This document shows positions 16,701-56,470 of a DNA stretch of 64,000 bases, one piece after another. Source of the stretch: Paramacrobiotus metropolitanus (lineage: Eukaryota > Tardigrada > Eutardigrada > Parachela > Macrobiotidae); NCBI RefSeq assembly GCF_019649055.1, contig NW_026570252.1, forward strand, positions 62,001 through 126,000, read 5' to 3'. The notes beneath the pieces are model-generated. The model was not told the DNA's origin. It did no database searches and saw only the letters and a program-made list of their open reading frames with translations. A program made the position numbers and the translations under genes. Within the stretch, counting starts at the first letter, position 1; each line of letters opens with the position of its first letter.

Positions 16701-16984
16701 TTTGGAGTGCAGAGCGAGTCGACGAAGGAACTTTTTAAGTTTTTAGGTTGTAGAATTTTTGAAAAAACGGGTGAAGCGCGTTCGAGTTCGTTTTTGAAAC
16801 AGCGCTTCAGCATTGCCGTTGTTCGTGGTAATGCGGCGGCAGTTTTGGGCACTTTGCCGCGTGTTAAACAGTTCAATAACGCTAATGATGGTATTGGATG
16901 TTTTGGTAGTACCTAATTTTGTAGCAGTAGTGTCTGGTTAATACTGTCATAATTATAAAAAGGTATTATATTTAAAAAAAAAAA
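13776..16984 (+). mobile_element. Full-length non-LTR retrotransposon with poly(A) and TSD
   Basis: About 3.2 kb element on the plus strand with one long open frame, a short 3' UTR ending in a run of A (16974-16984), and a 9-bp direct duplication AATTACGAC at each side. It splits a spacer whose uninterrupted relative is present at about 12.7 kb. The open frame without stops and the intact TSD suggest a fairly recent insertion. It lies between the two units of the segmental duplication, which lengthened unit A. Confidence 0.85.
13965..16916 (+). CDS. Retrotransposon ORF: reverse transcriptase plus restriction-like endonuclease
   Basis: A 983-residue polyprotein. Reverse transcriptase motifs are seen in order: GGIRPIAVGDTLRRM (about 325-340), motif A KLDFRNAF with Asp395, motif B QQGDPVGP (447-454) and motif C YLDD (476-479). 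The C-terminal part has a CCHC-like knuckle (CVSCG ... HHGLSC, ending Cys802) and a PD-(D/E)XK-like nuclease signature: KRPDG (843-847), WDATC (861-865), and a downstream Lys/Tyr-containing SHKRNHYRFL. This order (RT, zinc knuckle, restriction-like endonuclease) is that of the R2/NeSL/Hero type of elements, not of APE-type LINEs. No N-terminal C2H2 fingers are evident. The start may instead be the in-frame ATG at 14073. No frame breaks. Confidence 0.85.
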   Translation: MWWQLSRGHPATTSHALVSSFVLYPSIIVLPPILSFMAAATTSNLHYKKDGTLDLRFKTSRAARGAQQGPPMPTGSSAAPVFLSQLQTHPPMPSRLPKNARFVCAQAFGHALRKCCSQNVFESWRELLLFPKKAFVLPATRQLRKESLTTVIKRNVSSLSATTPLMAQQQRRGSRSTSQFDAERMWRQVASAFQCENTKGAIRAVISQDSVAPLNQATITALQEKHPPRPAAAQLPLPPHAETPFPVSPKEVMNSVYSFPAGSAGGYSDLRPQHVKDMLGRRDDVESDLCSTLMQFMDLILSGGVPDDVCPYFYGAKLIALSKPDGGIRPIAVGDTLRRMASKIVAARCQDEIGRLLKPIQLGFGTKGGAEAIVHATSRFLQFNHGGVRILVKLDFRNAFNMIGRDVVLRAVSKYIPAYFNYFMKSYGEWSHLLCGDELLMSQWGVQQGDPVGPLAFCLAVLELLRKLKSILKAAYLDDVTLGGTEEQIIEDIETVIQEGAELGLVLNFSKCEVFIFGGDENERSQAKENLLRKWPQLIILEQDNFSVLGAALNEVSVPVYLKTKIQDLKVMVERLQFLPSHHALYLLRNCFAIPKLIYLLRTSPCYECPDMLRSFDEILRGAVQRITNADISDILWLQMNLPVGRAGLGIRSADMLALPAFIASAYSVQTLASGIFPAYDGDFIDAVVQKWVDRYACTPPDELARKHQSAWDEPGIELMYSFARLHAYSDNVKRAVFLAASEPESGAWLNALPVPSLGNFLNDEQLRIAVGLRFGMDIVREHQCVSCGTRVQPNGHHGLSCLYSKGRWSRHCEMNRIVEKSFSAAGVPCQLEPPGMCGLNGKRPDGVTLVPVRDGQYVVWDATCSCTVASSYVDRSARQAGSAARVAESHKRNHYRFLQPPYSFYPVVCETFGVQSESTKELFKFLGCRIFEKTGEARSSSFLKQRFSIAVVRGNAAAVLGTLPRVKQFNNANDGIGCFGST

Positions 16985-29203: not shown

Positions 29204-29493
29204 ACTTTCTCTCGGGAAATGTCCAGAGAGATTAGGGCGAAATGCACCGCAATCCCGATACAGGAAAAAAGCCAAAAGCAGGACGAACAACAGACTGGTA
29301 TCTTCGCGGTTAAATTGTGCGCTAATTAAGACTGACTATCGAATTTATTATAAAAGAACTATTTCCATTGGCATGAGTGCCGAGAAAGTCTGTTTCATGG
29401 TTGATTGCTGTGTTATTAGTCTCTATTCGGGCACACACGAGTAGTGTACACGCTGATCTAACTGCGTTTGGCGCACATTTTAGCGCTGATCTG

Positions 29494-29580
29494 ACTGACA
29501 ATTTGATTGGTCAGACACGCCCCTTCCTGATTGGTCAGACTCCACCCCCTTCTCTGATTGGTCGGAACCGAACTGTTCAG
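29494..29580. repeat. Three iterations of GATTGGTC (inverted CCAAT), left arm
   Basis: TTGATTGGTCAGACACGCCC, CTGATTGGTCAGACTCCACC and CTGATTGGTCGGAACCG follow each other at 22-25 bp spacing. ATTGG is a reverse CCAAT box, and the C-rich parts resemble GC-box sequence, but the block lies 3' of the adjacent gene at the very end of the arm. Role unknown. A mirrored copy is at 44,833-44,920. Confidence 0.7.
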
Positions 29581-29662
29581 AACCGAACCGCCCATATTCA
29601 AACCGGTCAGAACCGAGCCGAACCGTTCAGGACCGAACCAAGACCGGCCGAACCGTACTTTA
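29570..29662. repeat. GAACCG short-motif array, left arm
   Basis: About ten degenerate iterations of GAACCG, AAACCGG or GACCGAACC between the CCAAT-like repeats and the 3' end of the gene. The mirrored array lies at 44,755-44,845. Subterminal iterated motifs of this type are common in transposon ends. Confidence 0.7.
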
Positions 29663-29740
29663 CCCCCTTTCTTTTGTTTATTTTTCCCCACCCTCTTTTA
29701 TTTTGTTTTCACCGAATAACAACGAACAAAGTAAAATAAA

Positions 29741-30919
29741 TCAGACCGCATGAACATACGCAGGAGTAGCAGTACAATCTTTGACAAAAATACAATTTCG
29801 GTTAAATTTCTGATGGTCATTGTATGGATCTCCTGGTGTCCAGTTGCTCATTGTAAACCGACAGAAATGACATTTAACTGTATCATCAGATCCGGTGTAG
29901 TACAGTCCGATCCTCGCCATGGCGCCGGCAGAAGGCAGGAGGTGTGGCCAATTTTCAAAAGTACTGAGTGGTCCGTTGGGGTCGTGCAGTGTGGAAACGT
30001 ACTTGTACAGTTCTTCGGCTAAGGTATACACCTGCTCCTGGCCGTCCCAGATGCCCACCATTTCGTCAGGTATACCTGAGAATCCGGACCAGGCTCCTGC
30101 AATGGCACAAGCCATGGTCCCAATGGCATCGGTGCATCCTCCGGTTAACATTGCCGCATGAAGGGTGGCTTCAAAAGGGCAATCGCTGCGTCGACCAATA
30201 GCAGCACAGTAAATGGCAACGGGAACTGCGTCCAATGGGCTGGTGCCATTGCCAATGGCTTTGAACAATTTTTCTTTCGGTTCAGCGCGTTGCGCGTAGT
30301 CCAGCACCATCATCATACGTGCATAAAATTTCTGACGTACAGAATCGGGGAGGGATTTATTGCTGTATTCAACAAGTGCGGAGAGAAACTCAAGCTCCTT
30401 CATCTTTTTATTCTTTAGAACCAGACTGATGGCGTAGGCCTGCAACTGTGCCCCAGCGGCGGCATCATTGGAAGAGTGGGTGAGTCGGGCTACACGGTCT
30501 ACAGAGAAACTCATCTGCTCCGTACGATTGTAAAAGTACAAGGGAAACGCTGTTATCCAAGTGGCAGCGTTACACTCTGTGCCTCGGTTACGGACTGTCG
30601 TAGCCGCAGCGGTCCAGTCTTTTGGGGGAGAATGTTTCCAACTGGCAATAATGGTGGTCAGTTCACCAAAAGCTCGGCGTTTAGTGTAGTTGTGGTAAAA
30701 AATTTGGCTACATTGCCTTGCGGCATTCTCCAAAGAAAAGAAGCCGGTATCCAGTAGAGACTTGGCGTAAGCGTGCGTTATTAAGAATTTCTCCCAGTAA
30801 GTCGAGACCTTGCTCCGCACTCCCGCCAAGTTCATGTGGCAGGAGGTAGGGCGTCTCAAGGGTGTTCCGATGCATTCTCCGATCAGAGCGCCTAATAAAC
30901 AACCTTTGTACTGATCCAT
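29741..30919 (-). CDS. ADP-ribosylglycohydrolase-like/BIR fusion protein, left arm copy
   Basis: Start chosen at MDQYKGCLLGALIGECIG (30919), the typical N-terminus of this hydrolase family; the frame is open upstream to 31000. Length 392 residues. Residues 1-300 follow the family order: GALIGECIG, AKSLLDTGFFSLENAA, LTHSSNDAAAGAQLQA, and GGCTDAIGTMACAIAGAWSG (260-279). The metal-binding TDDT motif seen in active members is absent before AKSLLDTG, and the usual GGDTD is GGCTD, so hydrolase activity is doubtful. Residues about 319-378 form a BIR (inhibitor-of-apoptosis-type) zinc module: FENWP, GLYYTGSDDTVKCHFC (Cys350, Cys353), WTPGDPYNDH (His369) and NRNC (Cys376). Spacing is CX2CX15HX6C, one residue shorter than usual. 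The gene lies inside the giant inverted repeat and points outward. Confidence 0.85.
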   Translation of the reverse strand: MDQYKGCLLGALIGECIGTPLRRPTSCHMNLAGVRSKVSTYWEKFLITHAYAKSLLDTGFFSLENAARQCSQIFYHNYTKRRAFGELTTIIASWKHSPPKDWTAAATTVRNRGTECNAATWITAFPLYFYNRTEQMSFSVDRVARLTHSSNDAAAGAQLQAYAISLVLKNKKMKELEFLSALVEYSNKSLPDSVRQKFYARMMMVLDYAQRAEPKEKLFKAIGNGTSPLDAVPVAIYCAAIGRRSDCPFEATLHAAMLTGGCTDAIGTMACAIAGAWSGFSGIPDEMVGIWDGQEQVYTLAEELYKYVSTLHDPNGPLSTFENWPHLLPSAGAMARIGLYYTGSDDTVKCHFCRFTMSNWTPGDPYNDHQKFNRNCIFVKDCTATPAYVHAV

Positions 30920-31009
30920 GGCGTTCAGAATTGCGAATGAATTCCCATTCCAGACAGCTAAGATAGACCAGCTAAGATAGACGTCGTTTTCAGAAATCAA
31001 ACTGGCGCT

Positions 31010-31440
31010 GACCTAGATTCTTTGTTCCTTACCTAATCCAAACTGGCGCTGACCCGCATTCTGTCTTATTCTCTCTGATTTGACAATGAGCAATCCAAAC
31101 TGGCGCTGACCTAGATTCTTTGTTCCTTAGCTAATCCAAACTGGACCTGACCTAGATTCTTTGTTCCTTAGCTAATCCAAACTGGCGCTGACCCGCATTC
31201 TGTCTTATTCTCTCTGATTTGACAATGAGTAATCCAAACTGGCGCTGACCTAGATTCTTTGTTCCTTAGCTAATCCAAACTGGACCTGACCTAGATTCTT
31301 TGTTCCTTAGCTAATCCAAACTGGCGCTGACCCACATTCTGTCTCGTTCTCTCATTTGACAATGACTAATCCAAACTGGCGATGACCCACATTCTGTCTT
31401 ATTCTCTCTGATTTGACAATGGTTGATCCACACTGGCGAT
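31010..31440. repeat. Minisatellite upstream of the fusion gene, left arm
   Basis: Nine or ten units that all begin TCCAAACTGG(C/A)(G/C)(C/A)TGACC. Two types alternate: a unit of about 41 bp with TAGATTCTTTGTTCCTTAG and one of about 57 bp with CATTCTGTCTTATTCTCTC then GATTTGACAATGA. The array sits immediately 5' of the gene, so it could act as promoter or enhancer. The mirrored array is at 43,016-43,410. Confidence 0.85.
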
Positions 31441-31689
31441 GACCACGTTTTCTTCAGTTACTACGAATTCTCCACAGTTAGTGTTTCGGCACTGGGCTTT
31501 CAGAATGGATTTTGACCTTTCGGAATTAACTTTTACTCCAGCGCAACGGGAATACTGTTTTGGATCGTTCCATTTAAATTCTTTAGATCTGGGGAAATTC
31601 AAATCATCGGCTTTCCCCCCTTTCTTTTGTTTCATTTTTTTCCCACCCTCTTTTATTTCGTCTTCAGTAACAATTATTACAAAAACAGT

Positions 31690-31800
31690 TCAGGCTGCAT
31701 AAACATACGCAGGAGTATCAGTACAGTCTTTGAAAGAAATACGATTTCGGTTAAATTTCTGATGGTCATCGAAAGGATCTTCCGGCGCCCAGTTGCTCAT
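31690..31800 (-). pseudogene. Truncated BIR copy (36 codons), left arm
   Basis: The last 36 codons of the fusion gene are duplicated here, starting exactly at an ATG (MSNWAPEDPFDDHQKFNRN) and ending in the same AYVxAA-stop. The final zinc Cys is Arg (NRNRI instead of NRNC), so the module could not fold as a BIR. The following AATAAAAGAGGGTGGG tract is also shared with the full gene, so the duplication included the 3' end of the gene. Mirrored at 42,612-42,722. Confidence 0.75.
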
Positions 31801-34100
31801 TTTAATGTATTATACTGCCACTACTAAGAAACAATATAAACTGTACGAGTACTGTACCTTGCACTCGTATAGATAGAGCGCGTAAACAGCATGCTTTCTG
31901 AATAAAATCAGAAAGAATCCGGCAGCGCGTGGTGATGTGACTTTTCTCTGAAAGTGCCAAAAGAAAACAATTCTTGCACTTAGAGACTGCACCGCACCGC
32001 ACCGGCTCCAAGCACCGCACCGCACCGGCTCCAAGCACCGCCCACCAACGTTCAGATAGGGTAGACAAACCAGCCATGTACTGTATGTATTTTACTGCTA
32101 CTACGCACAAACAAATGTACGAGTTCTATACTTTGCACTCGTATGGTCAGGACCCGGCAGCAGCCTGCTTTCTGATTAAAATTAGATAGCATTCGGCTGC
32201 AAGCATGCATCTTGTCTATTCAGTCATCGAACTTTGGGGCAGAAGTAACTTATTTTTTTGATTAAAACTACAGATAAGTTTACTTGTACCTAACGAAATT
32301 CAATACTAGGTGTGACAAAATGAGTCAGCATCTGTCATAACCTGTGAGCGTGCAGCCTGTCTGTACAGTCATCAAATGTTGGAATAAAATTAACTTATGA
32401 GGTGATTAACTTTATAGATAAGTTTACTTGTGCCTATGAGCATTGAATACCAGAAGTACATACTGGTCGGCACAAACAAAATAAACGTACATGCGTGACG
32501 TAGTTGCACATCCACCGGGAACAGCCGCGCGCCATCGTCTTGAAGCATACGTTGTTCACATATTGATTAACGGATATTATTAGTATGTATTATAAAATAA
32601 TGACGTACAAAACCAAGCTCCAACCACGAAATAGAGGAACATCATATTTTCTTATGAAATATGTCAAATTCCACGCATATATTCCTTCCCGAAATAGCAC
32701 GTAAAGCGCAACTACACAGGCTGCTGCTCAGGTACCGAAGTGGTTCAGACCGGTGAAGTGATGTGGTTACCTACAATGAATAGTACTTGTTACAACTCCA
32801 CTGCACCAAGGAACAGATATATACATAGATCTCTACAATTACCGTGTATAATGTACCGCACCACACCGGACCCCACACAACACCGCACCATACCGGCTTC
32901 GGCACAACGATACACTGCGCGGTACCGTATAGGTATTGTATGTATTGTACTGTCACTACCCGCAGACAAAATAAATTGTACGAGTACTGTACTTTGCACT
33001 CATATTGACAGAACGCAGCAACCGCCTGCTTTCTGATTGAAAGCAGTTAGCATCCGGCTGCGAGCATGCATTTTGTCTATTCAGTCATCGAACTTTGGGT
33101 CAGAAGCAACTTATTTTTATGATTAAAACTACAGATAAGTTTACTTGTAAAAACAGGAAGGCAATACTAGATGTACATGCTGCAAACAATGAAAGATTTA
33201 CACTGGTCGGAGCAAACTTGGTAGTCGTACCGTGCTGACATCCACCGAAGATAGCTGCGCGTAAGTGTCTTAAAGCATATGTTTTTTGTATATTTAAAAA
33301 CACATAATAAAAATCAATACGATTATAATGACATACAGACACATGCTTCAACTAAAAAAAGCGGTATTTAACCTTTTTTCAATGTGAAATGTGGAATTCC
33401 ACACGTCGACACCATGAAACGGCTAGAAAAAAACAATACTTTTACCTTCACAGCACTGGACCACACCGGACCCAGCACCACGGCGTACCGCAGCCCCGGA
33501 CGCCGCACAGAACCGGACCCGAACCTCATGACAACGCCCAGGCAGAGTAGCCATCATGTACTGTATATACTGTACTTATACTGTATACTGTAATACTGTA
33601 TACTGTACCACTACTCACAAAGAAAGATATATTGTACGAGTACTGTACTGTTTACTCAGATGGTCAGAGACGCACACAGGAAGCTGTTTGATTGCAATCA
33701 GATAGCGTCCAGTAGCGACAAGGCTGCCTAGGCCTGTCTGTTCAGACATCAAACTTTTAGGCAGAAGCAGCTTATTTTTCTGATTGAGACTACAGATAAG
33801 TTATACTTATACCTATGAAAATCTGTAATAGATGTACATAGAAAAAACAACACCGTGTATATACTGTACGGCACAAGCATTTCAGTTGTACATTTACCGT
33901 GACGCATGTATCCACTGGGATGGAAACTGTCTTTAAACATAAGGTGTTTGCATATTTACGAACAGATATTAGTAATATTTTAATGGGTAATAGCCGCCAA
34001 GATAATGATTGCATGCGCCGGTACACTACCAGAAAGTCAATATTTAATCAATCAAAAACAACCGAAATCAAAAGCAGTAGAACGCGCTTCTCTAGTTAAG
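31801..34100. repeat. Four degenerate long modules, left arm
   Basis: Modules of roughly 300-700 bp share ordered blocks: a CACCGCACCGG-type C-rich array, TGTACGAGTACTGTAC (about 31,840, 32,980, 33,634, with a shorter form at 32,117), GCCTGCTTTCTGATT, CATCGAACTTTGGG, ACAGATAAGTTTACTTGT (about 32,270, 32,413, 33,130, 33,790), CACTGGTCGG and CATCCACCG. No coding capacity seen. Mirrored at about 40,320-42,611. Confidence 0.75.
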
Positions 34101-37100
34101 GCTCGAATTCTACGGTCCATGAAATGCAACAGTTTACGCAGAGCCAGAGCGAAATACCCCCCAGTCTCAATCACTAAAAGATGAAAAAGTATCCGTTATC
34201 CAAAAACTGATATGTTCGGCGCTTGGAATTTTTGCAAGCTGAGCAACATGTCCTGGTTTCTTACAGCTGCCGGTGACATGCGGCTGTACACCAACTAGTT
34301 GCTTCACACAGCAGCAGTTTATTGGTAATTAATATAATCAATTAACTACAGATACTGTGCTTCAACCACAAAGGAGCGGCAATAAATATTATATTTTGTG
34401 ATATGTAGAATTCTACACATTGATTCCATTTCCATTAATCTGCACAGCACAATGCTGCCGCTCAGTCTCATGTTCAGGTTACGCGTATGAGTTGTGAAGA
34501 TTTTGTACAATTCCATTCTCAAATACGTACACCTTTTTTCTCATAAAATATATTACAGTTTTTGGACACCATAATTTCCAAAACAAATAGACATTTACCG
34601 TGTACAGTATGGAAGTTTTGATTTGCAAAATTGCATACCCAATACATAGAATACAACGTTAAAACATGGAGTTTTTCTCATCAGAAATTTGTAAGATTTT
34701 ATTCAGTGACAATACTACATAAAACTACGTTAACTTCCTCCCAAATTGGCACCGTTAAATTAGTTTTTAAATACATTTTTCTTGATATTTTCAAAATTTT
34801 TCGCTTAAAACGCAAATCAGTGGAGCCGCCGGGGACTAGTAAGTACTTTATTATTACACAGACTGCATGACTGGGGCCAGCATATTCATTTGACCACGAC
34901 CAGTGGTCAATCATCAGCTCATGGCGCTATAAGAATACATACCCTGTTCCAATAACAAAACTCGAACCAAAACAGCATCAATATAAGTGATAATAAGATC
35001 CAAATTAAAACAATAAGAACAAGCACAATACCAAGTAAAAATTCATGTTAAACGTTAGCCATCAACGTAAACTGCAACTTCTGCACTAATGCACAGTATG
35101 TTCGCAGTCCGTGTTTCGATTTATCGATGCGCAGTGTTTCATAGTAATAATCAAGTATTGAACACATGTAAGGGTTTAGTAAGTGTTGCAACTATGACGA
35201 TTTGCAAGCAAACGGAAGCAACCGGCTGCCTGAAACGGTGTCAATGCACTGACTTTGTAGGTATTTACTCCCCTACAATTTTACACTGCAGTTGCAATTT
35301 AAAAAAAAAACCAATATTTTACTGGTTTTGGTGTACTATTTTTCTAATAAATATCCCAGGGGTTTTAATATTTGTTCATGTAAGTGCAGAAAATTATTTT
35401 TGTTAAGACTGGCTCGGAGAAAGTTGAGTTGCGGGTAAATAATTATCAAGTTTTACAACGGAACTCGTTAAAATAATGAGGATGTCGAAGTACCGCGTAT
35501 GCCTCCGACCGCGGTATGCTCTGTGTTTTGCACTACCCTCTTGGGTGGATGTTGAATATTGCAACACCCACAATTTGTTTGTTACTTCCTGTGTTCACTG
35601 GGTATTTCTTTGTTAAAATCAAATTTATATTTTTTGACGTATATAACTTAGGACTATATACGCTCCAAATGCAACCCTTTTTGATGCCGCGCAAAGAAAC
35701 GGTTTTTAGCCCTACGTATACGAATTATGTGCTAACAAAATGTCATTACACAAAGCAAAAATTTTTTTACTTTAAATTTGATATTTTAATCAAATTTATG
35801 AGGACGTACTAAAGCAAGTGCTAGAAATGCGCGAAACTAAAATTTTTTCTGCATGTTGACAAATTTGTCTTTATGTGCAATTGTGCATAACACTGTAATC
35901 AATTACACTTTAAAGAAAAACAATCAGTACCGTGTTGGCCGGGTTACTTACCATAAATACACAAGCATCGAGTTGTGTCTGTGTATACCAAGTGCGTAGC
36001 ATACTTGTACCGTAAGTAATCGCAATTGATACCGCAAATACAGTACTAATTACCACTAAAGTACTAAAACCGAGTTCGAAAGTCCGCGCAAGTGAAGGTT
36101 TTGGTTCGTGTTCACAAATTTGTTCAGATGGTGTACCGGGTCACTGCCCTGAAGTACAGAACGATCGAGTTGCTGAAGACTCATGCGTATATCCATGTGT
36201 GCAGCACGCTGGCGCCATACGTATTTAATATCAAAATAGCAACTTCCGACACCGTTGGCCTGGTTGAAGGTTTTCGGACAAAAACACAAAAGTGTCGTAC
36301 TTATCTGGGTGCACAAGTATGACTTTATCCGTCAATTGCATTTCTGCGTTCATTGTACTGCAGTAGCCGGCATACTATAATATAATATCAGCCATTTTCT
36401 AAGAAGTTGCGAAAAGTGTAGCGAAGCCGTGTATCAACTCTCACCGAGTACATACACATCAGTTTACCAGTGACAGCTGGAGTGGTGACGTAATTGGTGA
36501 TTGGTCACAGTAACTTTTCTAAAGAAGCGCTAAGAGAAGATATACTTGTACTTACACATACGCCGCGTAAACACCACACCGTCGGGACGCGCAGATTGTC
36601 CACAGGCCGATAGCGCAGAATATAATTTATATATACTGTATAATTATTAAACACTTCTGTAATAATGTATTGTAAAACTAACTGAAAAGAGTTAGATAGT
36701 TATTGTACTGTCACGGCAAACAAAGAGATATGTTTTGTACTATACTTCACGGTGACATGTTTATATGGTTACACACGTTCTTACCAATTTTTCGCAAGTT
36801 TTCAGAACAAGTGCAAGGAGTTTTGTATTTTGATTGAAAAACTCCTAAAAATGTTACGCAGAAACTCAAAAATACATCGAAAACATGCATTTTCAAAACC
36901 AAAAACGAAGTTTTTTAAAACGTTCCATAGGAAAAGCACACAAAGTGGTAACAAAACAGGAGATTTTAAAACAGAAAGACGGAGTTTTCCGTATGACTTT
37001 GAAACTCTAAGTTTGTAAAACTATTCATCCATATAACGCATAAAATTGCCATTTCCCGGAGTTTTTTGAAAATTATTATTCGGGTGAATAGCAGCAAGAA

Positions 37101-37148
37101 ACCTGAATCAGCACATGCAAGCATTTCCAGTCAGGAGTATGTTAGAAA
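34101..37148. other. Unrecognised AT-rich inner arm, left
   Basis: About 3 kb with only short frames, none with recognisable content on either strand; the frame at 35516-35812 is hydrophobic but shows no family. Mirrored at 37,301-40,319. It may be structural or a diverged element core. Confidence 0.45.
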
Positions 37149-37300
37149 TATTAAGAGCAAAGCGACCCGGGTCGCTACGTTCGGTTTAAACAAAACATAT
37201 AACCTCTGTTGGTAATTCCGTTGGCTTCCATGCTTAACGGTTTGAGTCTAAATATGTGGGATTCGGATCAGTTGTATGCGAACAACGACTTTGCCCTATT
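37149..37300. other. Unique spacer at the centre of the giant inverted repeat
   Basis: About 152 bp that do not pair with each other, flanked by GAGTATGTTAGAA and TTCTAACATACTC. It contains a perfect 16-bp palindrome AGCGACCCGGGTCGCT at 37161-37176. No coding capacity. Confidence 0.75.
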
Positions 37301-40300
37301 TTCTAACATACTCATGACTGGAAATGCTTGCATGTGCTGTTTCAGGTTTCTTGCTGCTATTCACCCGAATAATAATTTTCAAAAAACTCCGGGAAATGGC
37401 AATTTTTATGCGTAATATGGATGAATAGTTTTTACAAACTAAGAGTTTCAAAGTCATACGGAAAACTCCGTCTTTCTGTTTTAAAAATCTCCTGTTTTGT
37501 TACCACTTCGTGTGCTTTTCCTATGGCGGCAACGTTTTAAAAAACTTCGTTTTTTGGTTTTGAAAATGTATGTTTTTCGATGTATTTTTGGAGTTTCTGC
37601 GTAACATTTTTAGGAGTTTTTCAATCAAAATACAAAACTCCTTGCACTTGTTCTGAAAACTTGCGAAAAATTGGTAAGAACGTGTGTAACCATATAAACA
37701 TGTCACCGTGAAGTATAGTACAAAACATATCTCTTTGTTTGCCGTGACAGTACAATAACTATCTAACTCTTTTCAGTTAGTTTTACAATACATTATTACA
37801 GAAGTGTTTAATAATTATACAGTATATATAAATTATATTCTGCGCTATCGGCCTGTGGACAATCTGCGCGTCCCGACGGTGTGGTGTTTACGCGGCGTAT
37901 GTGTAAGTACAAGTATATCTTCTCTTAGCGCTTCTTTAGAAAAGTTACTGTGACCAATCACCAATTACGTCACCACTCCAGCTGTCACTGGTAAACTGAT
38001 GTGTATGTACTCGGTGAGAGTTGATACACGGCTTCGCTACACTTTTCGCAACTTCTTAGAAAATGGCTGATATTATATTATAGTATGCCGGCTACTGCAG
38101 TACAATGAACGCAGAAATGCAATTGACGGATAAAGTCATACTTGTGCACCCAGATAAGTACGACACTTTTGTGTTTTTGTCCGAAAACCTTCAACCAGGC
38201 CAACGGTGTCGGAAGTTGCTATTTTTGATATTAAATACGTATGGCGCCAGCGTGCTGCACACATGGATATACGCATGAGTCTTCAGCAACTCGATCGTTC
38301 TGTACTTCAGGGCAGTGACCCGGTACACCATCTGAACAAATTTGTGAACACGAACCAAAACCTTCACTTGCGCGGACTTTCGAACTCGGTTTTAGTACTT
38401 TAGTGGTAATTAGTACTGTATTTGCGGTATCAATTGCGATTACTTACGGTACAAGTATGCTACGCACTTGGTATACACAGACACAACTCGATGCTTGTGT
38501 ATTTATGGTAAGTAACCCGGCCAACACGGTACTGATTGTTTTTCTTTAAAGTGTAATTGATTACAGTGTTATGCACAATTGCACATAAAGACAAATTTGT
38601 CAACATGCAGAAAAAATTTTTAGTTTCGCGCATTTCCTAGCACTTGCTTTAGTACGTCCTCATAAATTTGATTAAAATATCAAATTTAAAGTAAAAAATT
38701 TTTGCTTTGTGTAATGACATTTTGTTAGCACATAATTCGTATACGTAGGGCTAAAAACCGTTTCTTTGCGCGGCATCAAAAAGGGTTGCATTTGGAGCGT
38801 ATATAGTCCTAAGTTATATACGTCAAAAAATATAAATTTGATTTTAACAAAGAAATACCCAGTGAACACAGGAAGTAACAAACAAATTGTGGGTGTTGCA
38901 ATATTCAACATCCACCCAAGAGGGTAGTGCAAAACACAGAGCATACCGCGGTCGGAGGCATACGCGGTACTTCGACATCCTCATTATTTTAACGAGTTCC
39001 GTTGTAAAACTTGATAATTATTTACCCGCAACTCAACTTTCTCCGAGCCAGTCTTAACAAAAATAATTTTCTGCACTTACATGAACAAATATTAAAACCC
39101 CTGGGATATTTATTAGAAAAATAGTACACCAAAACCAGTAAAATATTGGTTTTTTTTTAAATTGCAACTGCAGTGTAAAATTGTAGGGGAGTAAATACCT
39201 ACAAAGTCAGTGCATTGACACCGTTTCAGGCAGCCGGTTGCTTCCGTTTGCTTGCAAATCGTCATAGCAAACCCTTACATGTGTTCAATACTTGATTATT
39301 ACTATGAAACACTGCGCATCGATAAATCGAAACACGGACTGCGAACATACTGTGCATTAGTGCAGAAGTTGCAGTTTACGTTGATGGCTAACGTTTAACA
39401 TGAATTTTTACTTGGTATTGTGCTTGTTCTTATTGTTTTAATTTGGATCTTATTATCACTTATATTGATGCTGTTTTGGTTCGAGTTTTGTTATTGGAAC
39501 AGGGTATGTATTCTTATAGCGCCATGGCTGATGATTGACCACTGGTCGTGGTCAAATGAATATGCTGGCCCCAGTCATGCAGTCTGTGTAATAATAAAGT
39601 ACTTACTAGTCCCCGGCGGCTCCACTGATTTGCGTTTTAAGCGAAAAATTTTGAAAATATCAAGAAAAATGTATTTAAAAACTAATTTAACGGTGCCAAT
39701 TTGGGAGGAAGTTAACGTAGTTTTATGTAGTATTGTCACTGAATAAAATCTTACAAATTTCTGATGAGAAAAACTCCATGTTTTAACGTTGTATTCTATG
39801 TATTGGGTATGCAATTTTGCAAATCAAAAACTTCCATACTGTACACGGTAAATGTCTATTTGTTTTGGAAATTATGGTGTCCAAAAACTGTAATATATTT
39901 TATGAGAAAAAAGGTGTACGTATTTGAGAATGGAATTGTACAAAATCTTCACAACTCATACGCGTAACCTGAACATGAGACTGAGCGGCAGCATTGTGCT
40001 GTGCAGATTAATGGAAATGGAATCAATGTGTAGAATTCTACATATCACAAAATATAATATTTATTGCCGCTCCTTTGTGGTTGAAGCACAGTATCTGTAG
40101 TTAATTGATTATATTAATTACCAATAAACTGCTGCTGTGTGAAGCAACTAGTTGGTGTACAGCCGCATGTCACCGGCAGCTGTAAGAAACCAGGACATGT
40201 TGCTCAGCTTGCAAAAATTCCAAGCGCCGAACATATCAGTTTTTGGATAACGGATACTTTTTTATCTTTTAGTGACTGAGACTGGGGTATTTGGCTCCCG

Positions 40301-40319
40301 CTATGGGTGACCTGTTGCA

Positions 40320-42611
40320 TTTCATGGGCCGTCGAATTCGAGACTTAACTGAAAAAGTGCGTTCTACTGCTTTCGATTTTGGTTTGTTTTTGATTGATAA
40401 AAAATTAACTTTCTGGTAGTGTACAAGCGCATGCAATCGTTATCTTGGCGGCTATTACCCATTAAAATATTACTAATAAATGTTCGTAAATATGCAAACA
40501 CCTTATGTTTAAAGACAGTTTCCATCCCAGTGGATACATGCGTCACGGTAAATGTACAACTGAAATGCTTGTGCCGTACAGTATATACACGGTGTTGTTT
40601 TTTCTATGTACATCTATTACAGATTTTCATAGGTATAAGTATAACTTATCTGTAGTCTCAATCAGAAAAATAAGCTGCTTCTGCCTAAAAGTTTGATGTC
40701 TGAGCAGACAGGCCTAGGCAGCCTTGTCGCTACTGGCCGCTATCTGATTGCAATCAACCAGCTTCCTGTCTGCGTCGCTGGCCATCTGAGTAAACAGTAC
40801 AGTATTCGTACAATATATCTTTCTTTGCGAGTAGCGGAAGTACAGTATATACAGTACATGGCTACTCTGCCTGGGCGTTGTCATGAGGTTCGGGTCCGGT
40901 TCTGTGCGGCGTCAGGGGCTGCGGTGCGCCGTGGTGCTGGGTCCGGTGTGGTCCAGTGCGGTGAAGGTAAAAGTATTGCTTTTTTTCTAGCCGTTTCATG
41001 GTGTCGACGTGTGGAATTCCACATTTCACATTGAAAAAGGTTAAATACCGCTTTTTTAGTTGAAGCATGTGTCTGTATGTCATTATAATCGTATTAATTT
41101 GTAATATGTGTTTTTAAAAATGCGAAAAACATATGCTTTAAAACACTTAAGCGCGACTGACCCCGGTGGATGTCAGCACGGTACGACTACCAGGTTTGCT
41201 CCGACCAGTCTAAATCTTGCATTGTTTGCAGCATGTACATCTAGTATTGCATTCCTATTTTTACAAGTAAACTTATCTGTAGTTTTAATCATAAAAATAA
41301 GTTGCTTCTGACCCAAAGTTCGATGACTGAATAGACAAAATGCATGCTCGCAGCCGGATGCTAACTGCTTTCAATCAGAAAGCAGGCGGTTGCTGCGTTC
41401 TGTCAATATGAGTGCAAAGTACAGTACTCGTACAATTTATTTTGTCTGCGGGTAGTGACAGTACAATACATACAATACCTATACGGTACCGCGCAGTGTA
41501 TCGTTGTGCCGAAGCCGGTATGGTGCGGTGTTGTGTGGGGTCCGGTGTGGTGCGGTACATTATACACGGTAATTGTAGAGATCTATGTATATATCTGTTC
41601 CTTGGTGCAGTGGAGTTGTAACAAGTACTATTCATTGTAGGTAACCACATCACTTCACCGGTCTGAACCACTTCGGTACCTGAGCAGCAGCCTGTGTAGT
41701 TGCGCTTTACGTGCTATTTCGGGAAGGAATATATGCGTGGAATTTGACATATTTCATAAGAAAATATGATGTTCCTCTATTTCGTGGTTGGAGCTTGGTT
41801 TTTGTACGTCATTATTTTATAATACATACTAATAATATCCGTTAATCAATATGTGAACAACGTATGCTTCAAGACGATGGCGCGCGGCTGTTCCCGGTGG
41901 ATGTGCAACTACGTCACGCATGTACGTTTATTTTGTTTGTGCCGACCAGTATGTACTTCTGGTATTCAATGCTCATAGGCACAAGTAAACTTATCTATAA
42001 AGTTAATCACCTCATAAGTTAATTTTATTCCAACATTTGATGACTGTACAGACAGGCTGCACGCTCACAGGTTATGACAGATGCTGACTCATTTTGTCAC
42101 ACCTAGTATTGAATTTCGTTAGGTACAAGTAAACTTATCTGTAGTTTTAATCAAAAAAATAAGTTACTTCTGCCCCAAAGTTCGATGACTGAATAGACAA
42201 GATGCATGCTTGCAGCCGAATGCTATCTAATTTTAATCAGAAAGCAGGCTGCTGCCGGGTCCTGACCATACGAGTGCAAAGTATAGAACTCGTACATTTG
42301 TTTGTGCGTAGTAGCAGTAAAATACATACAGTACATGGCTGGTTTGTCTACCCTATCTGAACGTTGGTGGGCGGTGCTTGGAGCCGGTGCGGTGCGGTGC
42401 TTGGAGCCGGTGCGGTGCGGTGCAGTCTCTAAGTGCAAGAATTGTTTTCTTTTGGCACTTTCAGAGAAAAGTCACATCACCACGCGCTGCCGGATTCTTT
42501 CTGATTTTATTCAGAAAGCATGCTGTTTACGCGCTCTATCTATACGAGTGCAAGGTACAGTACTCGTACAGTTTATATTGTTTCTTAGTAGTGGCAGTAT
42601 AATACATTAAA
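40320..42611. repeat. Four degenerate long modules, right arm
   Basis: Mirror of 31,801-34,100. Differences from the left are mainly length changes in the (TACTGTATAC)-type runs near 40,830 and a few substitutions. Confidence 0.75.
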
Positions 42612-42722
42612 ATGAGCAACTGGGCGCCGGAAGATCCTTTCGATGACCATCAGAAATTTAACCGAAATCGTATTTCTTTCAAAGACTGTACTGATACTCC
42701 TGCGTATGTTCATGCGGCCTGA
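42612..42722 (+). pseudogene. Truncated BIR copy, right arm
   Basis: Mirror of 31,690-31,800: 36 codons starting MSNWAPEDPFDDHQKFNRN, with Cys to Arg at the last zinc ligand. The frame is open and preceded by ACATTAAA. Confidence 0.75.
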
Positions 42723-43015
42723 ACTGTTTTGGTAATAATTGTTACTGAAGACGAAATAAAAGAGGGTGGGAAAAAAATGAAACAAAAGAAAGGGGGGAAA
42801 GCCGATGATTTGAATTTCCCCAGATCTAAAGAATTTAAATGGAACGATCCAAAACAGTATTCCCGTTGCGCTGGAGTAAAAGTTAATTCCGAAAGGTCAA
42901 AATCCATTCTGAAAGCGCAGTGCCGAAACACTAACTGTGGAGAATTCGTAGTAACTGAAGAAAACGTGGTCATCGCCAGTGTGGATCAACCATTGTCAAA
43001 TCAGAGAGAATAAGA

Positions 43016-43410
43016 CAGAATGTGGGTCATCGCCAGTTTGGATTAGTCATTGTCAAATGAGAGAGAACGAGACAGAATGTGGGTCAGCGCCAGTTTGGAT
43101 TAGCTAAGGAACAAAGAATCTAGGTCAGGTCCAGTTTGGATTAGCTAAGGAACAAAGAATCTAGGTCAGCGCCAGTTTGGATTACTCATTGTCAAATCAG
43201 AGAGAATAAGACAGAATGCGGGTCAGCGCCAGTTTGGATTAGCTAAGGAACAAAGAATCTAGGTCAGGTCCAGTTTGGATTAGCTAAGGAACAAAGAATC
43301 TAGGTCAGCGCCAGTTTGGATTGCTCATTGTCAAATCAGAGAGAATAAGACAGAATGCGGGTCAGCGCCAGTTTGGATTAGGTAAGGAACAAAGAATCTA
43401 GGTCAGCGCC
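43016..43410. repeat. Minisatellite upstream of the fusion gene, right arm
   Basis: Mirror of 31,010-31,440, with units ending CCAGTTTGGATTAG and containing AAGGAACAAAGAATCTAGG or GAGAGAATAAGACAGAATG. Confidence 0.85.
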
Positions 43411-43494
43411 AGTTTGATTTCTGAAAACGACGTCTATCTTAGCTGGTCTATCTTAGCTGTCTGGAATGGGAATTCATTCGCAATTCTGAACGCC

Positions 43495-44671
43495 ATGGAT
43501 CAGTACAAAGGTTGTTTATTAGGCGCTCTGATCGGAGAATGCATCGGAACACCCTTGAGACGCCCTACCTCCTGCCACATGAACTTGGCGGGAGTGCGGA
43601 GCAAGGTCTCGACTTACTGGGAGAAATTCTTAATAACGCACGCTTACGCCAAGTCTCTACTGGATACCGGCTTCTTTTCTTTGGAGAATGCCGCAAGGCA
43701 ATGTAGCCAAATTTTTTACCACAACTACACTAAACGCCGAGCTTTTGGTGAACTGACCACCATTATTGCCAGTTGGAAACATTCTCCCCAAAAGACTGGA
43801 CCGCTGCGGCTACGACAGTCCGTAACCGAGGCACAGAGTGTAACGCTGCCACTTGGATAACAGCGTTTCCTTGTACTTTTACAATCGTACGGAGCAGATG
43901 AGTTTCTCTGTAGACCGTGTAGCCCGACTCACCCACTCTTCCAATGATGCCGCCGCTGGGGCACAGTTGCAGGCCTACGCCATCAGTCTGGTTCTAAAGA
44001 ATAAAAAGATGAAGGAGCTTGAGTTTCTCTCCGCACTTGTTGAATACAGCAATAAATCCCTCCCCGATTCTGTACGTCAGAAATTTTATGCACGTATGAT
44101 GATGGTGCTGGACTACGCGCAACGCGCTGAACCGAAAGAAAAATTGTTCAAAGCCATTGGCAATGGCACCAGCCCATTGGACGCAGTTCCCGTTGCCATT
44201 TACTGTGCTGCTATTGGTCGACGCAGCGATTGCCCTTTTGAAGTCACCCTTCATGCGGCAATGTTAACCGGAGGATGCACCGATGCCATTGGGACCATGG
44301 CTTGTGCCATTGCAGGAGCCTGGTCCGGATTCTCAGGTATACCTGACGAAATGGTGGGCATCTGGGACGGCCAGGAGCAGGTGTATACCTTAGCCGAAGA
44401 ACTGTACAAGTACGTTTCCACACTGCACGACCCCAACGGACCACTCAGTACTTTTGAAAATTGGCCACACCTCCTGCCTTCTGCCGGCGCCATGGCGAGG
44501 ATCGGACTGTACTACACCGGATCTGATGATACAGTTAAATGTCATTTCTGTCGGTTTACAATGAGCAACTGGACACCAGGAGATCCATACAATGACCATC
44601 AGAAATTTAACCGAAATTGTATTTTTGTCAAAGATTGTACTGCTACTCCTGCGTATGTTCATGCGGTCTGA
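43495..44671 (+). pseudogene. ADP-ribosylglycohydrolase-like/BIR fusion, right arm copy, two frameshifts
   Basis: Same sequence as the left-arm gene except for two single-C deletions: CATTCTCCCCAAAAG near 43,790 (left copy has five C) and CGTTTCCTTG near 43,868 (left has three C). The first shift causes a stop at 43,858. The second does not restore the first frame by itself, but downstream of it the original frame is open again to 44671, including the complete BIR. One more substitution (Ala to Val in CPFE-T-LHAAM) was noted. Either this arm's copy is inactivated or both lesions are homopolymer sequencing errors. Confidence 0.8.
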
Positions 44672-44754
44672 TTTGTTTTACTTTGTTCGTTGTTATTCGG
44701 TGAAAACAAAATAAAAGAGGGTGGGGAAAAATAAACAAAAGAAAGGGGGTAAAG

Positions 44755-44920
44755 TACGGTTCGGCCGGTCTTGGTTCGGTCCTGAACGGTTCGGCTCGGT
44801 TCTGACCGGTTTGAATATGGGCGGTTCGGTTCTGAACAGTTCGGTTCCGACCAATCAGAGAAGGGGGTGGAGTCTGACCAATCAGGAAGGGGCGTGTCTG
44901 ACCAATCAAATTGTCAGTCA
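44755..44920. repeat. GAACCG array and CCAATCAG iterations, right arm
   Basis: Mirror of 29,494-29,662. CCAATCAGAGAAGGGGGTGG, CCAATCAGGAAGGGGCGTGT and CCAATCAAATTG follow the CGGTTC array. Confidence 0.7.
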
Positions 44921-44973
44921 GATCAGCGCTAAAATGTGCGCCAAACGCAGTTAGATCAGCGTGTACACTACTC

Positions 44974-47811
44974 ACACGGTTTGTTTTCCGGTAACAATAA
45001 CGGTATGTCTCACTCAAATTTACCGTTTTTCTGCCTGTACCGTATCGTAGAAAACGATAGAAAACCGTATACATATACAACTTTAAGAAATACAAAAAAA
45101 ACCAGATTTTTTGTACCGCAAAGTTGGTACTAACAAAGTTATTCTTGATGGCGAAATAATTCGTGGAGGCAACCATACAATACCAACTCATATTCTGGTT
45201 TTCTTGCGGAACGGCTCCTGCTGAATCAGGGCCGTCTAGCTGAACAAAACAAATATAGCCCTGCCAAATATCTCCGCTTCAAACCGAACTAGATAGAGAA
45301 GAATTAGAGAGAGATTTCTCCGGGACAAAAAAAAATGCTTCTATCGAAAGGTGCGAAATGGAACCATAGACTGAGCCAGTGAAGCACAGCATTTTTGTTA
45401 TCCTGGTTGGTTAATTACATTTCGGCGTTTGCAATAATCAGAAACCAGAAATATTATTAGTGTAATAAATATACTGGTTTTTGCATTGTTTTCTTCTCAT
45501 TTTCTCAGAACTCTGGTTCGGTACGGTGTCCACAAGCTAGTGGGTCCATAAGCAAAGCTTTTCAGAGAACTGATCGTATCACGAAAACTGGTACATTTTT
45601 TCACCATCTATTCTTTTTTCGCTATAATTACACAACCGGAAACTGCGCCAACGAATTTTAAAGCCCAAAGTGAACTAATCGTTTGGCTACAGAATATAGC
45701 AAAACAACGCAAATAAAAATGTAGGGAAGCGGGCGAAGGTGAGTATGTTGTAGTACAAGAACGTGTACTTAGTGCCGGATACTTCCTTTATTCCTTAAGG
45801 AAAGAGTACATGGTACCAAATTCTTGTACATCTACAAAACAATTCGCTTGGAGCACTCCCAGTTACTCTTTATGGCATTTGATAGCCGCATGATTTGCAT
45901 ACATGCATGGGTGTGAAAACCGTTGGTTAGCGCAACATCCGGTTGCTTGATTACGGGTGAAATAAAATTCCAAATGTTTTACCGCAGGGAGGCGTACGAA
46001 AAGTCTCATTATCAATTTCATCCATTCTAGGATGAAGCGCGCATGAGGACGAGGATCCGTTTCACATCAAACCCGGTTCCAAGTTTCTTTCAAAGGTAAA
46101 ATAAATATTTAACATTTTCGGAATTCAATTGAACGTTCCGGAAACATGGAAATTAGGTCCGGAATAAGAGCTTTTAGCGCTTTTCTTGCCACGTTTTCAT
46201 GCCAGATTTGGAGAAGGTCGGTTATCAACGAAAATTTTGGTACGCATCTGTTTGTCTAAACTTTTGGAATTTTATCTCCCCTACCGGATGTTAAATGCGC
46301 AAACGATTTCACGCAGTATTATTTGTTTTTTCGAATGCCATAAAACAATGCAAAAAGGCCTTTGGTGTGCACCAAAGGAAAGGGTTATGTAAATGTGTGC
46401 CCTAATTCGGTATACCAACTACCATGTAATTTACCGGCACATCTTCTGTATTACCAGCGAAAAACAGCCAGTGAGTTTAAAATGCAATCTGGTTAATTGC
46501 AAATCTTAGCAGAATGCCGCAGCTTTGATTGCGTCAAAACGCTTGCCGCACTGAATTTCCAACAAGGCCTGAATGGTGGAAAATACGAGTATCATCTAAA
46601 ACTGCATGCGGCAGACTCAGCATAGGGAGAGGTATCTTTTACAACGCAGTACGTATACCACTTTCAGAATGCAACGGGATCAAACACTTGCACGGAAAGG
46701 CAGCTGGGCGAGAAAGGGACTTAAGTTGTTATTCACAATGAAAGCGCTAAAAGAACGTTAACAATTTACAGATACTTTGTACTTTTTGCATTATTCGACC
46801 GAAGCGTAGCGTTCTCTATGTTTAGCGTTTATGAAAGTTGTGGATGTCTGTCGACCACCTCCACCTTACGCACATATGCTCGCCCCAAAGGAACGAACTA
46901 ATAATGTTTATTTTAATACCATATTATTTACTTACTTTTTAATTTATTTTAATATTTTTCTTATACCTTTGTTAACCACAGTCCACAGGTAAGCATTCGA
47001 AAAATAAATTATATTTCTTTCTAACTTTGTATAATATGTTTCATTTTGTTTTAAATTGATTTCATTTCGAATCGTTTCGTCTAACAAATTCCGTAGTTCG
47101 TTTCACGATAATTTTTCCATTAAGAATTATCATTTTTTGCACGTAAAGATCACGCAGATCGCTTCGGTAGAAGCCGTTCGATTTTATATATGCACCGTTT
47201 TTCCAACCTCCTACAAGTTGTGAAAAGAAAATAATGCAGGTAGCACTCTATGCACAACCGGTTGGTAAACCGTGAACTGGCACACCTTGTTATGTATTAA
47301 TTATCAGCAGGAGTGATTGACAGCAGGAGCTCTGTCAAGTCCGTTCTGTTTTCCGGGAAGTTAATGGATTAAAACATAACAAGAATGTTTTTTTTAACTG
47401 CTGCGCTGCACGAATGCAGAACATGCCCATTAACTCGCCGGTGCACCCAGCCCGTTTATTTTTATGCAACATAGGCCGAGCAATACCGAAAATGTTCTTT
47501 TTTTAAGGAAGATTTTTAATGGTGGTCGCTTACCCGATAACATGACTTAATCAATCAGTGTGATTCTTTTACCCTACGATAGCTATACCGTAATTACAAC
47601 GTTACTGTAGTTTTCGGCTATCACCCGTCAAAACCTTGGGCAAATCGGTCAGCGTTGAGCAGTGTCAATTTTTATTACGTACTCGTAGCATGTAATCTTG
47701 CTGCATTTGCAGCCATTTATTACAAGAAAACCGGCACCGGAAGTTGGAGCAACGATTCGTACTCTCACAGTGCCAAAATTAATTTTATTCCGATGCGTCC
47801 ACCGATGCCGA
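44974..47811. other. Intergenic, right flank of the inverted repeat
   Basis: No gene supported. At about 45,915 a GAAAACCGTTGGTTAGCGCAA then CATCCGGTTGC block resembles the arms of the foldback element at 61.6-62.6 kb, so a fragment of that family is present. A short inverted pair (GTACAAGAACGTGTAC and GTACCAAATTCTTGTACA) lies at about 45,755-45,830. Confidence 0.4.
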
Positions 47812-55129: not shown

Positions 55130-56470
55130 AACAGTAAGTTAACCGGCACACCGACGATTTGCTGACGGTCATCTTGCTGACCGACAACTTGCTGACGACT
55201 ATTTGCTGACTGACAAAAATGTTGACCCGACAGTTAGTTGAAACAACAAATCGCTGAACGACATTTTGCTGAACGACAGTTCGCTGACACAGACGATTTG
55301 CTGACGACATTTTGCTGACTGACAGAATGTTTACCCGACCATTTGCTTACTTAACTAAATTGTTGACCGACATTTTACTGACGGACGTTTTATAAAAATA
55401 CCGAAAACTCGCTGACCACAAATTTATTCTGTTACCCATCAAATCCTTGTGAAACACAATTCTTTATCACGCGTTTTTTTTTCAAAACTTCACCTAAACA
55501 CGTTTTGAGAACATTTAAAGAAACAAAAGTTCATTAAAAATTCCGCTCTTTCAACGGAACCCTCAATTTGGGGGATTATGATCGGATAACACAACCACTT
55601 CTCCTGCTCTTCACAGCTACCGGCTTATGCAGCAATCTGATAATTCCAGTCGTCCATTTCTCCTTTTTTCTACTAGCGCGCACGAGTGAATTTCATAAGA
55701 CATCTTTGAAACCAACGAAAACTAAGAAACCTAAGAAATCTAAGAAGCCTAAGAAACCTAAGAAACATAAGAAACCTAAGAAACCTGAACAACCTAAGAA
55801 ACCTAAAAATAACCTAAGAGTAACCTCAGAAACATAAGAAACTTAAAAACCTAAGAAACCTAAAAAAATTGAAAACCTAAAAATAACCTAAGAGTAACCT
55901 AAGAAACCTAAGAAACCTAAATAAACCAAGAAACCTAAAAAAAACCTAAGAAACCAAAGAAAATTAAAAACTTAAGAAACCTTAGAAACCTTAGAAACCT
56001 AAGAAACCGGTTATTATTATTAAAACATTTTTAACAGTTATTAATAAATAATTTATATTTGCTGAGACAATAACATACTCGTGAACTTAATACGGGGTAA
56101 AAAAAAGGCAAAACGTTATATTTCAATCATAATTGTCACAGTATTGCTCCCTTTTTATGAAACCAACGAAGATTCTAGTTTTCGCGTAAATATCGCTATG
56201 TGCGTTGAACTAGTCAGCAAATCATCGGTCAGCAAGTTTTCGTCTTCTACAAGGGGTCGGTCAGCGAATTGTCGATTACCGAACTTTCGCTGACCGACAA
56301 GTAAGCTGTCGTTCAGCAAATTAATTTCAGCAAAATGTCGGTCAGCCAGTTTGTAAAAAAACGAACTGTCGGTCAGCGATTTGTCAGTCAGCAAGTTGTG
56401 GCAGTCAGCAACAAGTCGGTCATCAAATTGTCGGTCAGCGAAATGAAGGTCATAGAGTTGTCGTGCTACC
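55130..56470. mobile_element. Foldback element with GCTGACCGACA-type iterated arms
   Basis: The left part (about 55,140-55,420) carries a dozen degenerate iterations of TTGCTGACNGACA. The right part (about 56,205-56,465) carries the same motif in reverse complement (TGTCGGTCAGCAA). The centre holds a microsatellite. This is the layout of foldback transposons with iterated termini. No coding region identified. Confidence 0.7.
55716..56010. repeat. Microsatellite AAGAAACCT and derivatives
   Basis: About 290 bp of imperfect CCTAAGAAA units (some CCTAAAAATAA) in the centre of the foldback element. The apparent Lys/Pro-rich frame across it is a product of the repeat. Confidence 0.85.

Follow-up and report, generated by a model that had tools for sequence, protein, structure and literature searches.

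A probable lineage of palindromic, non-autonomous Polintons with a doubled end in the genome of the tardigrade Paramacrobiotus metropolitanus

Introduction

Polintons (Mavericks) are virus-like transposons thought to replicate much like adenoviruses; to our knowledge, direct evidence for such replication in animals is thin, and we know of no animal in which extrachromosomal replication of a Polinton has been seen. They encode a protein-primed polymerase, PolB (excerpted text of PMC6431247), and in vertebrates their commonest end motif is 5'-(AGT)2//(ACT)2-3', accompanied by 6-bp target site duplications (TSDs) (excerpted text of PMC8097293). Here we describe a 15,533-bp palindrome within a 64,000-nucleotide stretch of the Paramacrobiotus metropolitanus genome (RefSeq assembly GCF_019649055.1, contig NW_026570252.1, positions 62,001 to 126,000 of the forward strand; hereafter, the window), which we identify with high confidence as a palindromic non-autonomous Polinton. 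Taken together with its siblings elsewhere in the genome, it probably represents an old lineage of non-autonomous, end-duplicated palindromic Polintons that are moved by helper elements and kept symmetric.

The window palindrome was inserted as a unit

The searched assembly comprises 169.8 Mb in 533 contigs, and the window corresponds to C32:62001-126000. The palindrome lies at positions 29440-44972 of the window, with termini AGTAGT...ACTACT: the left arm (29440-37162, plus) starts with AGTAGT, and the right arm (37289-44972, minus) ends with ACTACT. BLAST alignment of 29439-37162 to the reverse complement of 37289-44973 gave 98.1% identity over 7,743 columns, centred at 37206. This bears out the two near-identical arms of about 7.7 kb described in an earlier sequence-only reading of this DNA, whereas the 152-bp spacer given there is replaced by an unpaired centre of 126 bp (37163-37288), the would-be hairpin loop. 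The arms include inverted blocks of 100% identity (1,265, 1,108, 733 and 640 bp among them), and a pairwise alignment contained 93 differences in 7,706 aligned sites. The outermost G/C pair of the arm alignment is part of the target duplication and lies outside the element proper; the flanks show no mirror symmetry.

A perfect 6-bp TSD, CACACG, encloses the palindrome (29434-29439 and 44973-44978). Joined with the TSD once, the flanks match 13 other places across the junction without a break, at 86-91% identity; on the left side, no more than the final 20-30 bases of the flank belong to the repeat at the insertion site. Two paralogous empty sites, on C63 and C47, are uninterrupted and contain a single CACACG each. 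Because the flank matches are continuous and the empty sites carry the hexamer once, the block must have entered a dispersed repeat as a unit: the palindrome was inserted in one piece into a copy of this repeat, making the 6-bp duplication. The host repeat itself (29410-29439 and 44979-45063, with the 13 other places) is dispersed and resembles miniature inverted-repeat transposable elements, several copies having a second inverted match nearby.

The arms carry an ADP-ribosylglycohydrolase/BIR gene

In the left arm, an intact open frame of 423 aa (29741-31012, minus) combines an ADP_ribosyl_GH domain (PF03747, E 2.6e-34) with a BIR domain (PF00653, E 1.2e-15); we call this gene ADPRH-BIR. Behind it follow a minisatellite (30998-31444), a 5' remnant of a second Polinton gene, ORF241 (residues 1-49; 31457-31603, plus, by tblastn), and a fragment of an older ADPRH-BIR 3' end that is ~80-82% identical to the arm's own gene (31611-31805, with the coding match at 31696-31800, minus). 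The remainder of the arm (31806-37162) consists of non-coding iterated modules common to other palindromes. The right arm mirrors this order with the older 3' fragment at 42612-42716 (plus), the ORF241 remnant at 42809-42955 (minus), the minisatellite at 42968-43416 and ADPRH-BIR at 43402-44671 (plus), here broken into two frames (43402-43860 and 43844-44671). The mirrored ADPRH/BIR genes of the sequence-only reading are therefore present as sequence, with both domains in a single frame only on the left. Likewise, a gene and minisatellites are found at each arm end, as that reading had it; a role of the minisatellites, with 41-57-bp units, in driving the gene was not borne out, and they are present in single-gene Polinton copies as well. 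A short dispersed repeat (71-84% identity) occurs within the arm modules, at window 33976-34320 and 29 other places in the genome.

The sequence-only reading also proposed that a captured gene on such an element would constitute a new system. Genome matches to ADPRH-BIR (104, grouped into 69 loci, weak and partial matches included) lead to a different conclusion. At least 43 of the 69 loci have an integrase match no more than 10 kb away, mostly at 3.6-4.9 kb, with a chance expectation of ~1.8% per locus, and for this reason we reject capture of a host gene; to judge from these neighbourhoods, ADPRH-BIR is a resident terminal gene of coding Polintons and no new capture, and it comes into the palindromes together with Polinton ends. 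Among the matches listed, 26 loci had no integrase nearby, comprising 6 palindrome arms and 20 others, of which those on C17, C244 and C11 have a Polinton TBP-ATPase stretch nearby; at the palindrome loci C32, C37 and C58, none of the listed integrase matches falls within 10 kb.

ADPRH-BIR is probably a conserved pseudo-hydrolase fused to a BIR domain and under purifying selection. The ratio of nonsynonymous to synonymous substitution rates (dN/dS) was 0.11-0.27 in 11 of 14 pairs, two of which use the left window copy, and 0.48 and 0.59 in two close pairs; the remaining pair was saturated. Aligned to ARH3 (2qty), the window protein has WEK in place of TDD and GGCTDA in place of GGDTDT, which we take to be the ARH metal-binding segments, so that the metal-site segments of active ARH/DraG proteins were not found. 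The changed residues E74, K75 and C293 are invariant in all six BIR-fused copies aligned, on which the pseudo-hydrolase reading is based, and so are the BIR zinc ligands. The protein might serve the Polinton by binding ADP-ribose signals and apoptosis proteins. A search of IMG/VR viral contigs returned 90 stretches fitting the ADPRH-BIR pattern, none of which was confirmed.

The ends of the palindrome match those of coding Polintons

To judge from predicted genes, many coding Polintons are resident in this genome, with at least 150 matches to the integrase and 70 to PolB. Single-gene copies on C23, C113 and C78 begin with AGTAGT, and that on C438 with AGTAGC. The C113 element has AGTAGT ends 18.2 kb apart (the other end at 63385), terminal inverted repeats of ~115 bp at 99% identity, and flanking hexamers CAGGCG and CAGACG. 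It encodes PolB (PF03175, E 2.7e-43) near one end and ADPRH-BIR next to the opposite end only, together with an rve integrase (E 3.5e-12). In C113, C78 and the fetched part of C23, the end is followed by ORF241, ORF159, a TBP-domain protein and a Pox_A32-like ATPase, the latter at E 1.4e-4 (C78) and 9e-3 (C113), both below Pfam's cut-off; C113 and C78 run on into ORF96, ORF345 and the rve-type integrase. The end region of the window palindrome is 95.8-96.9% identical to those of C23, C78 and C113 in ungapped comparison, and 87-93% by BLAST with gaps. The TBP domain of the coding Polintons (PF00352, E 5.5e-20, at L024:2764-3351, which equals C113:77764-78351, minus strand) is a TATA-binding-protein domain, which is unusual for a Polinton.

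At least seven palindromes share this architecture

Searches with the two arm halves yielded at least 125 and at least 102 matching stretches, and a third search used a piece of the C58 arm. Together they place at least seven complete palindromes with Polinton-type ends in the genome, the window included. The other six lie at C37:526129-546921 (TSD matched at 4/6 positions; an extra inverted segment), C58:660290-673567 (GGTCTA), C114:284360-295043 (ACCGTC), C5:1716039-1736132 (GATCTG), C23:272430-279721 (C23b; TTTACT) and C22:1375934-1400346 (ATTTCA). The 6-bp TSD is thus perfect in six of the seven, C37 being the exception. Exact AGTAGT was found at 11 of 14 palindrome ends, with C114 right, C5 left and C22 right each one base off. 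All seven reside in contigs whose lengths range from 442 kb to 3.5 Mb. C517, a contig of 12.6 kb that breaks off within the right arm, is a further mirrored copy, and C1:1838049-1843204 has a mirrored outer part and stands outside the count of complete palindromes. The copies, empty sites and target duplications that the sequence-only reading had suggested looking for with one arm were accordingly recovered, and they point to a mobile element instead of the local inversion-duplication that it had held out as the alternative.

Whole-arm identity is 99.0% in C37, 98.1% in the window (with its divergent patch, described below), 98.6/98.1% in C58, 99.6/97.7% in C114, 98.2% in C23b, 96.5% in C5 and 98.0/94.1% in C22. 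A PolB fragment (C23:279902-280495) directly adjoins the C23b palindrome, outside it, which may reflect insertion of one Polinton-type element into a second one at this place.

The palindromes hold one Polinton end twice

The gene remnants in the palindromes follow the order of the ADPRH-BIR end of the coding Polintons. In both arms of C114, from the terminus inwards, we found the ADPRH-BIR 3' end, ORF159, TBP residues 160-196 and ATPase residues 1-78. Both arms of C58 contain ADPRH-BIR, TBP and ATPase remnants, those of the window and C37 contain ADPRH-BIR and the start of ORF241, and those of C5 and C23b contain ORF159. The left window copy is the only intact ADPRH-BIR among the palindromes, the C37 and C58 copies having stops or breaks.

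The two traits of an autonomous Polinton, PolB and an rve integrase, were not found in the palindromes. In the stretches read (the palindromes, with a minor part of the C22 interior and part of the C5 interior covered), there was no integrase (E 1e-3), ORF345 or ORF96, and the same queries matched the control loci L023 and L025; nor did any of the at least 150 listed genome matches place an integrase at a palindrome. PolB was likewise absent from the stretches read, in a search without a control locus, and from the palindromes among the 70 genome matches. As far as can be told from their sequence, the arm modules are non-coding DNA, joined by decayed Polinton genes in the sibling elements. An origin of the modules from the PolB end was considered and rejected, as the modules had no match to the fetched Polinton pieces.

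Both arms of C5 retain an open ORF159 (1716396-1716821 and 1735407-1735832) over 142 aligned residues, as do, with an in-frame deletion, those of C23b (C23:272806-273204 and 278921-279319). The right C114 copy has one stop, and the left C114 and the C517 copies are frameshifted. ORF159 matched no Pfam family, and a protein database search gave seven candidates, none at E <= 0.001. As a candidate parent of the palindromes, a C13-family Polinton comes no closer than C113 and was rejected.

Arms agree within loci, and palindrome ends are mosaic

In a tree of 22 end sequences, the two arms are sisters in the window (support 0.998), C37 (1.0) and C58 (0.999). In a tree of 12 ORF159 sequences, to which C517 contributes one arm only, all palindrome copies form one clade with support 1.0, and the arms pair by locus: C5 at 99.1% identity (support 0.899), C23b at 100% and C114 at 95.1% (0.865), against 82.8-95.9% between loci (five pairs computed). 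Given this clade and an identity of just 53% between the C114 and C113 copies, the lineage must be old. We consider it likely that the arms have been re-homogenised by some process.

The agreement is uneven along the window arms. Of the 95 entries in the mismatch list, 57 fall within 1.03 kb (33154-34183), a further 25 border the centre and 13 lie in the rest of the arms. Among 58 sites of this patch, C37 shares the base of the right arm at 43 and that of the left arm at 8; the corresponding counts are 36 and 18-20 for C517 and 38 and 16 for C1. As the right arm sides with all three relatives, it is the left arm that carries a diverged or foreign stretch.

Comparison of the window with C37 revealed a change point at about arm position 2,000-2,250, and Polinton homology stops at 2,177. 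In 250-bp blocks, identity reaches 96-100% in 20 of the 23 inner ones; two more stand at 95% and 90%, and one is gapped. Of the eight outer blocks, one is gapped and the remaining seven are only 81-94% identical; BLAST with gaps gave 92.4, 94.7 and 98.8% for inner pieces and 83.5% for the end, and identity over the 1.46-kb end region was 86.9%. The nearest relatives of the ends also differ: those of the window are C23 (96.9%) and C78 (96.5%), and that of C37 is C60 (94.7%), where the C37-C60 node has a support of only 0.668 and the clade including C58 has 1.0. C23, C78 and C60 each have an integrase match within 5 kb. Within each of the window and C37 palindromes, both arms have the same end. 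Just inside the change point, both of these palindromes retain the 195-bp fragment of an older ADPRH-BIR 3' end, and C114 and C517 have only such an older fragment. We read this fragment as the scar of an earlier end beneath the present one.

Other features of the window

Outside the palindrome, the window contains a retroelement with a 991-aa open frame and a reverse transcriptase domain (13941-16916, plus; PF00078, E 6.2e-19) and a tandem array of ~33 units of the 9-bp repeat GAAACCTAA (55708-56008). Rfam gave no match within the window.

A model for the palindromes and its rivals

We propose that a Polinton end, comprising the terminus, ADPRH-BIR, ORF241, ORF159, TBP and the start of the packaging ATPase, would have been doubled head to head, with loss of the opposite end with PolB, of the integrase and of the rest. 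The ends presumably required by a Polinton integrase were kept, and coding Polintons could then mobilise the palindromes in trans. In protein-primed linear replication outside the chromosome, a displaced strand might pair with itself along its full length as a hairpin; copying across this hairpin, or repair of its mismatches, would make both arms alike. If one arm acquired a new Polinton end, the same step could transfer it to the opposite arm; this would explain how the window and C37 came to have ends of different Polinton lineages that nevertheless match within each palindrome.

Hairpin replication as the homogenising route is tentative, somewhat short of an even call. The two palindromes with the least similar arms, C5 (3.5% divergence) and C22 (2-6%), each show a mutated end base. 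This is consistent with a reset of symmetry at mobilisation followed by drift after insertion and argues to that extent against homogenisation by the chromosome. However, C114, with an arm difference of 0.4-2.3%, also has a mutated end base, and this weakness of the divergence argument is why we hold to the hairpin only modestly. Ordinary chromosomal gene conversion after insertion, which homogenises the arms of Y-chromosome palindromes, would also equalise the arms, and it could account for the clumping of 57 of 95 mismatches in ~1 kb, for kilobases of identical arm and for the 94-99.6% likeness of arms in elements of unlike age. We regard it as a possible but rather doubtful source of the symmetry.

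The remaining explanations are far less probable. Separate inversion-duplication, or fold-back repair of an inserted single-ended element, at each place would also leave arms most alike within a locus; it is very unlikely in view of the perfect TSDs around whole palindromes in six of seven cases, the unmirrored flanks, the single TSD at empty sites, and the grouping of the palindrome copies in one old clade, whose members are mirrored wherever both sides were read. Palindromes are a known class of assembly artefact, arising from palindromic chimeric reads or joined haplotypes, and the C517 copy does make up a whole 12.6-kb contig. Unmirrored flanks, exact TSDs, arm differences of ~1%, empty sites and seven loci within long contigs make such an artefact, including one from fold-back reads, highly improbable. 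A chance arrangement is excluded by the inverted blocks of 1,265, 1,108 and 733 bp at 100% identity and by the six further complete palindromes. Least credible is a foldback, Galileo or Mutator-type element that picked up a host ADPRH-BIR gene. The long, internally repetitive inverted repeats and short centre make the foldback resemblance noted in the sequence-only reading fair as to shape. Foldback elements are Mutator-like and make 9-bp TSDs. Galileo makes 7-bp ones (excerpted text of PMC3573991), and the elements here have 6-bp TSDs and AGTAGT/ACTACT ends, which rules out membership of either family. In addition, the siblings carry mirrored Polinton genes, and ADPRH-BIR belongs to Polintons.

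Several observations weigh against our account of an old, helper-moved and symmetric lineage. The ~1-kb patch, in which the window arms are 5-10% apart, represents incomplete homogenisation. In C5, 3.5 kb of the inner left half lack pairing to the right half; the C22 centre, where read, is not mirrored and contains a Gypsy-type element, and the C22 TBP and ATPase remnants reach threshold in the right arm only. We found no close founder, since palindrome ORF159 proteins are 36-43% identical to C113 (tblastn) and 30-36% to C13 in full-length matches (tblastx). Between C5 and C114, ORF159 shows dN 0.090 and dS 0.578, a dN/dS of 0.16 that indicates purifying selection and, with the open frames, implies that the lineage is not purely passive. 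Finally, the link to the integrase rests on the shared ends, and replication and movement are deduced from sequence.

A more far-reaching version of the helper-moved Polinton account, in which these are a stable germline lineage of 'satellite' Polintons that depend on coding Polintons, trade ends with them and become symmetric anew in each round through the hairpin of a protein-primed linear replication intermediate, is conceivable, although we would not bet on it. If true, satellite Polintons would document in the genome how a virus-like transposon gives rise to defective genomes, and long double-stranded RNA directed against the helper could form from their transcripts.

Comparison with known systems

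Symmetric defective adenovirus genomes (the DNA of incomplete particles and the symmetric recombinant of Ad12 cells), which carry one terminus of a linear, protein-primed genome twice in head-to-head orientation, appear to be the closest mechanistic precedent; here, instead, an animal transposon has given rise to an old lineage integrated in the germline. In the linear replicons of Streptomyces, arm replacement exchanges ends capped by terminal protein, which are then common to both arms; that system differs in being bacterial and in lacking integration with a TSD.

The foldback and Galileo elements of Drosophila are alike in their giant repetitive inverted repeats with little between them, and differ in their ends, in TSD length and in having no replication by a protein-primed polymerase. 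Galileo is a P-superfamily element, and its copies are chimeric between subfamilies (excerpted text of PMC3573991), like the palindromes here. A Galileo paper mentions that inverted-repeat expansion was reported for Polintons. In the open-licence literature, as covered by titles and the starts of abstracts, we recognised neither a Polinton with a palindromic or end-duplicated layout nor an ADPRH-BIR gene in a Polinton, so the end-doubled layout is new in architecture as far as that search reaches.

The palindromes are closest to Polintons/Mavericks, with which they have in common the AGTAGT//ACTACT ends and the 6-bp TSD (excerpted text of PMC8097293) and whose coding relatives in this genome possess PolB, an rve integrase and an A32-like ATPase. 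In contrast to these, the window element is a one-end palindrome in which PolB and integrase were not found, with inverted repeats of ~7.7 kb versus ~115 bp in C113. The tardigrade Polintons, for their part, would be set apart by an unusual terminal gene, a pseudo-ADP-ribosylhydrolase joined to a BIR domain, and by a TATA-binding protein. The palindromes illustrate how so large a symmetric structure can endure in a genome, and they offer testable marks, namely, hairpin DNA, homogenisation of arms and swapping of ends with helpers. An end-duplicated, self-symmetric lineage with exact insertion sites is a product that could be expected from protein-primed replication.

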